Positions 24,890 through 52,572 of a DNA stretch of 52,572 nt are shown here, one piece after another; position 1 is the stretch's first letter; every line of letters begins with the position of its first letter. Under the pieces are notes generated by a model. That model had not been told where the DNA came from. It saw only the letters and a program-made list of their open reading frames with translations, and did not search any database. Made by a program: the position numbers and the translations under genes. Source of the DNA: Anoxybacteroides tepidamans (GTDB taxonomy: Bacteria; Bacillota; Bacilli; Bacillales; Anoxybacillaceae); assembly GCF_014201465.1 (NCBI RefSeq), contig NZ_JACHEP010000022.1:1-52572 (forward strand), read 5' to 3'.

Positions 24890-25041
24890 GCGGGCGGCCT
24901 TTAAGCAAAATAGACCGCTGACGCTTTTCTCTTACTGGCTAGCTCTCTTCTGCTAAACCAGCCTTCGTCGAAGCGGCAAGCGCTTCTCGTCGGAAGAACA
25001 TTTGGCTTCGAGAGCTGTTCTCGCCGCTGACGCTTTTCTTA
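24890..25041 (-). repeat. GC-rich hairpin repeat at the spoVT stop codon
   Basis: Minus-strand reading starts TAAGAAAAGCG, where the TAA is the spoVT stop itself, and runs through short inverted repeats to CTAGCC at about 24940. A second, shorter unit starts TAAGAGAAAAGCG at about 24934. The central part matches the repeats in the 23S-5S spacer (ATGTTCTTCCGACGAG, then a small hairpin, then CGACGAAGG). It fills most of the 309-bp spoVT-yabM gap; the rest (about 24813-24889) shows nothing I can assign. Confidence 0.75.
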
Positions 25042-25575
25042 TTGCTCCATTTGTCGCGCTAAAAAGCTGGCAGCCGTTTCTACTGCTTTATGCTCTACTT
25101 CACCAATCGTTTTCTCTTTTGATAAAATGACAACCGCTCCAATTGGATCGCCATTTGCCACAATCGGTCCAATCGTATACGATTTCAATCGTTCTGTATG
25201 TCCATCAACCATTTCCACTTCGCTTTCTTCTATGCGAAGCACCGGTTGACGCTCTTCCATCACTTTTTCCACTAAGGAGCTGACGCTTTTATTGAGAAAT
25301 TCTTTTTTCGAAACACCTGCAACAGCAATAAACGTATCGCGGTCGCAAATTAATACTGGATGCCCTAAACTATCGAACAAAGCTTCGGCATACTCTTTCG
25401 CAAAATCACTAAGCTCACTAATTGGCGAATATTTTTTTAAAATGACTTCACCGTCACGATCAACAAATATTTCGAGCGGATCGCCTTCTCGGATGCGCAA
25501 CGTTCTCCGAATTTCTTTTGGAATGACAACCCTTCCTAAATCATCAATTCGACGAACAATACCAGTTGCTTTCAT
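25039..25575 (-). CDS. spoVT: Stage V sporulation transcription factor SpoVT
   Basis: Controls late forespore (sigma-G) genes in Bacillus. The 178-residue protein has an N-terminal AbrB-type swapped-hairpin DNA-binding domain (1-50; MKATGIVRRIDDLGRVVIPKE) and a C-terminal GAF domain (about 56-178), the known architecture. Its stop codon is shared with the beginning of a GC-rich repeat. A sigma-G promoter lies about 80 bp upstream, separate from mfd. Confidence 0.97.
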   Translation of the reverse strand: MKATGIVRRIDDLGRVVIPKEIRRTLRIREGDPLEIFVDRDGEVILKKYSPISELSDFAKEYAEALFDSLGHPVLICDRDTFIAVAGVSKKEFLNKSVSSLVEKVMEERQPVLRIEESEVEMVDGHTERLKSYTIGPIVANGDPIGAVVILSKEKTIGEVEHKAVETAASFLARQMEQ

Positions 25576-25654
25576 CTATTGATGCCTCACTTTCATCTAA
25601 TAATTGAAGAATACACCGATGAATTCTCGTTGAAGAATCCACCATTGTTGAGAT

Positions 25655-25683
25655 TAGTATCCTTCACAATGCAACTTCTATAC
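25655..25683 (-). promoter_or_regulatory. spoVT promoter (sigma-G)
   Basis: On the minus strand GTATA (25679-25683) and GATACTA (25655-25661) are 17 bp apart, matching the sigma-G consensus (GHATR, CATWMTA) with one mismatch in the -10. spoVT is a sigma-G gene in B. subtilis. Confidence 0.7.
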
Positions 25684-25768
25684 GTGATGAAAGTGATTTT
25701 TTCAATTTTAGATAAAATTCCCCAACATTCATCATCGACATTTTTTTTTAAACATAAACGTCATATGG

Positions 25769-30275: not shown

Positions 30276-30541
30276 GGCAAAAATCAGGTGTGTTGATTAA
30301 CCAATAAAAAACAGGTGACATCGCTCTATTCCTAGCTTTTCTGCCGTAGTCGGCTAAGCTCAGCTTGCCGACTGGGCATGCTGTACGCATGCTCTCCTCG
30401 AACAATGAACGCTTTGCGGGCAAATGACATTTGCCCGCCGGCATTCTTGTTCGAGGGCAGAGGCAGAAAAGCTTGTGTTCAGCAATATGATTCTGTGTTT
30501 TTTAGTAAAATAATGGATAATCAACATTCGTGGGCAAAAAT
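30276..30541 (-). mobile_element. 248-bp MITE-like structured element, copy 1, with 9-bp direct repeats
   Basis: The element proper is 30285-30532, flanked by a perfect direct repeat GGCAAAAAT (30276-30284 and 30533-30541), as expected for a target-site duplication. The ends are imperfect inverted repeats (CAGGTGTGTTGATTA against CACGAATGTTGATTA). Inside, 12-bp perfect arms AGCTTTTCTGCC (30334-30345)/GGCAGAAAAGCT (30462-30473) close three hairpins: 30348-30373, 30376-30392 and a long one 30396-30456. No protein-coding frame is convincing. About 92% identical to copy 2. It occupies the ctc-pth gap. Confidence 0.85.
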
Positions 30542-34219: not shown

Positions 34220-34485
34220 TCATCGCATCAGGCGTGTTGATTAACCATTAAAAACCGGTTGACCTCGCTCTATTCCTAGCTTTTCTGCCGTAGTCGGCTA
34301 AGCTCAGCTTACCGGACTGGGCATGCTGTACGCATGCCCTCCTCGAACAATGAACGCTTTGCGGGCAAATGACATTTACCCGCCGGCGTTCTTGTTCGAA
34401 CGAAGAGGCAGAAAAGCTTGTGTTCAGCTATATAATTCTGTGTTTTTAGTAAAATAATGGATAATCAATACTTGTGTCATCCCTT
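34220..34485 (-). mobile_element. 248-bp MITE-like structured element, copy 2
   Basis: The element proper is 34229-34476, the same length as copy 1 and about 92% identical. Flanks TCATCGCAT (34220-34228) and TCATCCCTT (34477-34485) agree at 7 of 9 positions, as in an older, decayed target-site duplication. Terminal inverted repeats and all internal stems are kept. It lies between the ridA stop (34489) and the spoVG promoter, in a 425-bp gap that holds nothing else except that promoter. Confidence 0.82.
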
Positions 34486-51922: not shown

Positions 51923-52039
<117 letters not shown>

Positions 52040-52111
52040 CTGTGGAAGGATTGTTCCTTCAAAACTAGATAACAGGCAGGTCATGAAGAAAAGATATAGC
52101 GTTTGATCGAT

Positions 52112-52255
52112 GTCTAGCGGCGGCAATATTCGCGGCTGAACAGTCGCCTCCGCTTTGCTTTCTCCGTACGACGTGCAAGCACGTCTTCGTCGAAAGCTCC
52201 CGCTTCCATCGGACGTTTTCTTGGCTATGCCAAGAACCGTTCTCCGCTTTTCTTA
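52112..52255 (-). repeat. GC-rich hairpin repeat B in the 23S-5S spacer
   Basis: 144 bp that begin TAAGAAAAGCGGAG and end CTAGAC on the minus strand. It contains inverted repeats GGTTCTTGGC/GCCAAGAA and GACGTGC/GCACGTC with flanking CGACGAA and GTACGGAG. A further internal AAAGCGGAGGCGACTG resembles another unit start. It lies inside the rRNA transcript. The remaining spacer (52040-52111) looks like an ordinary 23S-5S spacer. Confidence 0.75.
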
Positions 52256-52257
52256 TT

Positions 52258-52375
52258 GTCTAGTTACGGCTCGCAGCGCCTCGTAGAAAATAACCGTCCT
52301 CCGTCGACATGCACGCATGTCTCGTCGGAAGAACATTTTCCTTCCGGCGCTAAGCGCTCGCCTCCACTTTTCTTA
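52258..52375 (-). repeat. GC-rich hairpin repeat A abutting the 23S 3' end
   Basis: 118 bp that begin TAAGAAAAGTGGAG immediately after the 23S end and finish CTAGAC, two bases before repeat B begins. The core ATGTTCTTCCGACGAG, hairpin ACATGC/GCATGT, CGACGGAGG is shared with the spoVT-side repeat. Confidence 0.78.
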
Positions 52376-52572
52376 GGTTAAGTCCTCGATCGATTAGTAT
52401 CCGTCAGCTGCACGTGTCGCCACGCTTCCACCTCGGACCTATCGACCTCGTCATCTTCGAGGGATCTTACTCGCTTTCGCGATGGGAAATCTCATCTTGA
52501 GGGGGGCTTCACGCTTAGATGCTTTCAGCGCTTATCCCTTCCGCACATAGCTACCCAGCGGTGCCCCTGGCG
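52376..52572 (-). rRNA. 23S rRNA, 3' end (partial)
   Basis: The minus strand reads the 3' end of 23S rRNA, from GCGCTGAAAGCATCTAAGCG (about 52520-52539) through the last helix to GATCGAGGACTTAACC. The gene continues beyond the window. The exact 3' end is placed at the end of GACTTAACC by analogy; it directly touches repeat A. Confidence 0.96.

Follow-up and report, generated by a model that had tools for sequence, protein, structure and literature searches.

The IS231 mobile insertion cassettes of Bacillus cereus are small derivatives with IS4-family ends. MITEs in general are usually viewed as remnants of insertion sequences (ISs) with arbitrary middles, and long palindromes are common in them. 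In plastid genomes, small inversions are known in which a hairpin loop between inverted repeats is found in both orientations. The name MIC231 appears in the reference list of PMC6542083. The bcr repeats of the B. cereus group are described, in passages of PMC3446304, as high-copy, intergenic, MITE-like and partly transcribed, and a title in the reference list of that paper presents bcr1 as specific to this group. In the MITE described below, it is the middle that is the conserved part, and the folded module that forms this middle recurs in MITEs that would need different transposases for their movement.

The window analysed is a stretch of 52,572 nucleotides from the thermophile Anoxybacteroides tepidamans (NZ_JACHEP010000022.1, contig 22 of a 3.39 Mb draft genome in 54 contigs). 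Both of its ends lie in rRNA genes: positions 1-98 cover the beginning of a 16S gene, and 51923-52572 hold 5S together with the end of a 23S gene. It contains two copies of a repeat that I call type A:

30276..30284, no strand: left target-site duplication GGCAAAAAT, read from the sequence
30285..30532, plus strand: type A MITE copy 1, 248 bp, in the ctc-pth gap
30285..30303, plus strand: left terminal inverted repeat CAGGTGTGTTGATTAACCA, from an end-pattern scan and the IS ends
30514..30532, minus strand: right terminal inverted repeat, CACGAATGTTGATTATCCA when read on the minus strand, from the sequence, the copy alignment and the IS ends
30533..30541, no strand: right target-site duplication GGCAAAAAT, read from the sequence
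34220..34228, no strand: left flank of copy 2, TCATCGCAT, 7/9 against the right flank
34229..34476, plus strand: type A MITE copy 2, 248 bp, in the ridA-spoVG gap
34477..34485, no strand: right flank of copy 2, TCATCCCTT

The initial annotation of this DNA had described a 248-bp element with imperfect terminal inverted repeats and a perfect 9-bp flanking duplication, together with a second copy of equal length, about 92% identical, with a 7/9 flank match. All of these features are present, the terminal repeats agreeing by eye at 15 of 19 positions in copy 1 and 16 of 19 in the consensus. The gene names ctc, pth, ridA and spoVG given at that time agree by eye with the translations, and each copy lies between co-directional minus-strand genes. 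Of the ORFs of at least 60 aa, just one overlaps copy 1, a 98-aa frame extending into the ctc gene, and an 85-aa frame touches the right end of copy 2. Type A is a short (248 bp), non-coding, repeated element with no transposase gene.

Repetition of type A in its own genome is far beyond chance. At least 40 matches of at least 195 bp were found there (the best 40 of 116 candidates scored), and the 19-bp end pattern, allowing up to two mismatches, occurs 146 times (74 + 72) as against twice (1 + 1) for the reversed control. Both ends could be located by the pattern in 34 of the 40 copies aligned, and the flanking 9-mers of these 34 agree at 9/9 in 20 copies, 8/9 in nine, 7/9 in one and 5/9 or less in four, so that 29 of 34 show 8/9 or 9/9 agreement. 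Within the family, 28 of 41 genomes, spanning eight of nine genera, match type A at E <= 0.001, and 22 of the 41 do so at 1e-20 or better, some of the others matching by a short piece only. Two plasmid records also carry the element. The two loci of the window were then compared with their counterparts in relatives, 30 loci per site being examined out of the 41 family genomes that matched. At both ctc-pth and ridA-spoVG, the MITE is present in its own genome only and all 29 other loci are without it. The flanks of these sites are too diverged for a base-exact reconstruction of the empty site, and two relatives have other long gaps (310 and 377 bp in G011; 303 bp in G013, at ridA-spoVG).

A lead to a parent element came from a fragment (L041) in which the same end lies beside transposase code. 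This 385-bp fragment was matched in 30 of 61 genomes. Among 15 IS stretches taken from relatives, 12 have both IS ends and measure 1247-1264 bp, and five of the 12 (L147, L148, L149, L154, L158) have an intact 377-aa ORF. The homologous IS ends are CAGGCGTGTTGATTAwCCA and CACGAGTGTTGATTATCCA (or CACGGCTG...); left ends include CAGGCGTGTTGATTAACCA and CAGGCGTGTTGATTATCCA, and right ends CACGGCTGTTGATTATCCA and CACGAGTGTTGATTATCCA. At the left end, the MITE consensus agrees at 19/19 positions with L147, L148 and L153, and at the right end, again at 19/19, with L149, L150, L154, L155 and L158. Not one IS agrees fully with the MITE at both ends together, the mismatches amounting to 1/38 for the L149 type and 2/38 for the L147 type. 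The right ends of the MITE also resemble the IS left end (84% over 43 bp). A perfect 9-bp duplication flanks four of the 12 ISs (L147, L148, L149, L154), while the other eight agree at 5/9 or less, perhaps through recombination between copies.

The transposase matches DDE_Tnp_1 (PF01609) and the IS4-family model NF033592 at 224-225 bits (cut-off 115), and by eye it has a YREK-like motif, which I take to be a mark of the IS4 family. Two homologues on Geobacillus plasmids, about 79% identical in DNA, carry the annotation 'IS4-like element IS5377 family transposase'. One of these annotated copies has the ends CAGGCGTGTTGATTATCCA and CACGAGTGTTGATTATCCA and no visible duplication; it carries the MITE right end exactly and the MITE left end with one change. 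Judged by its ends, type A is thus a MITE of the IS4-family insertion sequence annotated IS5377, and it would be mobilised in trans by an IS5377-type transposase. Its present mobility is unproven, because the ISs found in the draft genome are partial and eight of the 12 ISs of relatives are without a 9-bp duplication: the 385-bp query finds 15 matches there (among the best 40 of 106 candidates), all partial except the query, which is itself an internally deleted IS copy. At about 900-1000 of L073 (contig C12), repeated GTTTCAATTCCTCATAGGTACGATACAAAC-like units with the look of a CRISPR array lie near an IS5377-type remnant.

The MITE reading of the initial annotation is supported by these results: copies are numerous, ISs with nearly the same ends exist, and relatives have sites without the element. 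Neither of the outcomes that it had named as speaking against this reading was observed, since the element does not occupy both loci in all relatives, and both further copies and ISs with matching ends were found. The initial annotation did not recognise the element as a named family. The ends link it to IS5377, and the open-licence literature searched gave, by its listings, no description of the repeat or of its module. The MITE claim holds and is in itself unremarkable, the element being one more MITE, and a new one, of an IS family already known. What is unusual is its interior, a conserved cloverleaf module that it shares with other MITEs and whose loops occur inverted between copies.

This module, like the IS5377 link, had been missed by the initial annotation. 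The 266-nt stretch formed by copy 1 and its duplications folds more stably than dinucleotide shuffles on either strand (z = -9.2 on the plus strand, -9.9 on the minus strand), and the middle of type A, about 138 nt, forms a four-way junction ("cloverleaf") made of an outer stem P1, two hairpins P2 and P3, and a long hairpin P4:

30335..30472, plus strand: cloverleaf module of copy 1, 151.9 bits with model R1 over all 138 positions, copy 1 being among the 21 sequences from which R1 was built
30335..30343 (5' arm) and 30464-30472 (3' arm), plus strand: outer stem P1
30349..30372, plus strand: hairpin P2
30374..30394, plus strand: hairpin P3, loop orientation variable among copies
30396..30456, plus strand: long hairpin P4
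34279..34417, plus strand: cloverleaf module of copy 2, 132.2 bits

Model R1 was built from 21 modules chosen among 46 extracted. Their alignment has 50 consensus pairs, and for 13 of these one or more of the sequences show a double change. Among 299 genomes of the order, R1 finds the module in nine, of which G170 and G316 lie outside the family. In G170 all 11 matches scored are R1 matches, and IS5377-type ends were seen by eye in the four loci read. The single G316 copy is weak, its 46.1 bits lying within the range of antisense matches (up to 47.4); compared with shuffles, no score out of 2000 reaches it in the correct orientation, as against 75/2000 (versus type A) and 1110/2000 (versus type B) in the wrong orientation. 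A scan with the module start pattern gave at least 94 stretches. Among the 80 listed, 70 come from Anoxybacillus, Geobacillus, Parageobacillus or Thermolongibacillus, and the remaining ten, from unrelated groups, were taken for chance. R1 matches 36 of 44 named start-pattern loci and none of the other eight, which include the Thermolongibacillus locus L287. As far as seen, the module is absent from the ISs of relatives. Of 94 model matches examined, from loci chosen by type A similarity, 85 have both IS5377-type ends, five the left one only, three the right one only, and the single match with neither is a copy of the type C described below.

Strong folding on both strands and double changes at 13 of 50 pairs across genera are what one would expect if the module were a functional structured RNA, for example one that stabilises or processes transcripts to the benefit of the MITE or of its host and is selected at the RNA level. 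The partial transcription of the B. cereus bcr repeats, two of which (bcr10 and bcr18) are given as predicted RNA elements in passages of PMC3446304, fits such a role. Against it, the type A element has no Rfam match at gathering or relaxed thresholds. A terminator role was rejected, there being by eye no T-run after the module on either strand.

Related modules were found inside three further MITE types (B, C and D), which have different ends and, where read, are flanked by TA or by duplications of about 6 bp; one of the three occurs in other families of the order. Type B is about 252 bp long, folds with z = -12.5, and occupies at least 40 places of at least 215 bp in the A. tepidamans genome (the best 40 of 101 candidates). 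Its ends are TATAAATACAACTG..., and 26 of 29 copies have TA as left and right flank. Three plasmid records carry it, two of them matching by the module part only, as a shorter type B; in one plasmid of A. amylolyticus (L418, NZ_CP015440.1), the 3' part of an annotated HNH/ENDO VII nuclease gene (25019-25711) runs through a type B-like element. Type C has the ends TATATATGATAAGC... and ...GAATCTATATA and at least 40 places in G040 (the best 40 of 127 scored). In the three type D loci read (L404, L406, L410), the ends resemble AGGCTCTTTTCTCAGAGATTGTTGCT / AGCAACAAAGTTTACGAAAACAGCCT, and by eye the flanks agree over 6 bp. Type D was found with a second model, R2, built from types A, B and C, which gives eight matches out of eight scored in G231, two in G340 and one in G206. 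Type D was not found on plasmids, and phages gave no match for either type A or type D.

The similarity of these interiors could in principle be a convergence of hairpin-rich sequence, the module being ordinary filler and the MITE a palindromic IS remnant. Long palindromes are frequent in MITEs as a matter of general knowledge, blastn detects no significant similarity between types A and B, and model matches to the antisense strand reach 47 bits, so that palindromic content alone scores. By contrast, type C carries the type A module itself between different ends, at 125-128 bits in four of four loci. R1 also matches, in the sense order, each of the 21 type B loci scanned out of 30, with scores of 49.5-67.8 bits as against at most 44.6 for antisense, the weakest of these scores being barely above the type A antisense level of 47.4 bits, and in 21 of 21 loci scanned the best match runs in the order P1-P2-P3-P4. 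Finally, the alignment of A and B modules scores 87.5, compared with 35 +- 8 for shuffles that keep the helices, none of which (0/3000) reaches it. Mere filler is already disfavoured, and I regard it as very improbable.

For the more distant vehicles, the evidence is from models and shuffles, the relatives of type B, type D and G316 being diverged and coming from model or similarity searches. R1 gives 70.5 bits on L404 and 58.1 bits on L410, whereas at E 0.01 it has no match in L406, L407 and L411. The assignment of L406 and L407 comes from R2 and the shuffles, and L407 (G168) folds as a cloverleaf module; the stretch L411 (G006) has no cloverleaf fold. P1 and P3 are missing from R2, types A and B being out of register in its alignment; R2 has hits at E <= 1e-4 in 22 of 397 genomes, the matches in G005, G006 and G038 being short or weak. 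When eight modules (two of type A, two of type D, and one each of B, C, L407 and G316) were compared in all 28 pairs with structure-keeping shuffles, 27 pairs were reached by none of 1000 and one by 2/1000. Rfam searches of eight other loci returned two sub-threshold hits, one of them inside the L404 module (24.3 bits, gathering threshold 56). A 6S RNA (RF00013) lies at 219-399 of L406 in G231, about 1.1 kb from the type D element and outside the module.

How did one module come to reside in several vehicles? It might move on its own, as a single-strand or cruciform element, and have inserted itself into several MITEs. Consistent with this, the module starts with GCTTTT or GCTATT and ends with the complement in those copies of types A, C and D that were read, and these ends stay constant even though the inner part of P1 differs, within bounds set by pattern or model. 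No solo module was seen, however, among the 94 model matches, a comparison limited by the choice of loci for type A similarity, and independent mobility seems improbable. Rather, the occurrence of related modules within MITEs with different ends makes the module look like exchangeable cargo. By eye, four loci (L042, L043, L096, L329) are A/B chimeras, and a type B copy is nested in a type A copy at L057:3180-3431 (contig C2:378179-378430). Motifs shared between vehicles, to which an RNA function can also appeal, could on the other hand reflect selection or common descent of the vehicles, which would speak against exchange.

Type A also exists in shorter forms. Five of seven short copies are 109 bp long (L050:3040-3148, L065:1918-2026, L066:1772-1880, L063:2169-2277, L043:3057-3165) and share one aligned junction, L043 having diverged there. 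They have no module, yet their flanks match at 8/9 or 9/9, and they keep the 5' arm of P1. At the break are the imperfect direct repeats TTCTGCC / TTCAGCC. The retained P1 arm, the shared junction and the repeats at the break lead me to read the 109-bp forms as deletion derivatives and not as the cargo-free ancestor. At the end of contig C10 (L045:3182-3802), the left part of a type A element breaks off inside the module.

Loop orientation was assessed on 91 of 107 module rows, after 10 antisense, three type B and three duplicate rows had been dropped; loops could be parsed in 77 of the 91 modules for P2, 56 for P3 and 74 for P4. Twelve of 53 non-palindromic loop alleles occur in both orientations, and they are spread over all three hairpins (5/25 in P2, 3/18 in P3, 4/10 in P4). 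The three inverted P3 pairs each differ at five positions, and at L279 an inverted P2 loop is the sole difference between two A. voinovskiensis modules along 139 nt. For one P2 and one P4 allele, the orientations differ by only one base, so that a point change could equally account for them. Types B and C behave alike, with inversion of one of 19 alleles for the main P2 loop in type B, and of 2/15 in P2 and 1/18 in P3 in type C. These inverted tips suggest hairpin extrusion or template switching in DNA.

An RNA function would predict an excess of G-T over A-C cells. In the A. tepidamans genome, departures from the commonest pair comprise 32 G-T and 34 A-C cells, a near-equality that is the expectation without a preferred RNA strand. 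Outside this genome, G-T exceeds A-C (67 to 31 cells), as RNA function predicts and contrary to a DNA-only account, although the distinct pair-by-state cases number 26 against 27. The orientation of the element relative to co-directional neighbours is likewise unbiased, with nine loci in the same and ten in the opposite direction, a test blunted by the near-symmetry of the hairpins (30 loci were examined, 27 had both neighbours by simple ORFs and 19 were co-directional; ORFs overlapped the element in nine). Taken together, the pair-cell and orientation data favour, without proving, a DNA-level cause, and a function of the module as a structured RNA appears doubtful.

The account that I prefer, and consider probable as a whole, is that of an IS5377-type MITE with an exchangeable cloverleaf cargo whose hairpin tips are inverted at the DNA level. 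An IS5377-type transposase, acting in trans, would insert the MITE and produce the 9-bp target duplication. The module of about 138 nt would be passed as cargo between vehicles, probably via recombination or template switching at shared hairpins. The hairpins would extrude, or mis-template, in DNA often enough to invert their tips, and arm-to-arm copying may also help to maintain the complementarity of the arms. A wider proposal is that at least four MITE lineages, differing in their ends and target duplications (9 bp, TA, about 6 bp) and distributed over several families of the order, share the four-way-junction DNA/RNA module as a conserved cargo that can be exchanged. Hairpin-mediated template switching would maintain and spread the module while also flipping its tips, and the module may have a selected function of its own; there is as much to be said for this proposal as against it. 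With many copies per genome, these repeats form a natural record of hairpin-loop inversion and of module exchange from MITE to MITE, and they open to testing whether it is RNA function or DNA-level template switching that shapes bacterial hairpins.

Among the described systems close to type A is IS5377 of the IS4 family, which it resembles in its ends and in the 9-bp duplication present at four of 12 IS copies of relatives, and from which it differs in being 248 bp long, in having no transposase gene and in having a cloverleaf module as its interior. Compared by description only, it is like MIC231 in being a small derivative with IS4-family ends, and like bcr1-bcr3 in being a high-copy, intergenic, MITE-like repeat. 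REP/REPIN elements combine short REP hairpins with a RAYT transposase, and the IS4-type ends and 9-bp duplications of type A speak for another class. Small plastid inversions share with the module a loop that is present in both orientations between inverted repeats; here, however, the inversions concern many copies of a bacterial mobile repeat and affect three hairpins of one and the same module.
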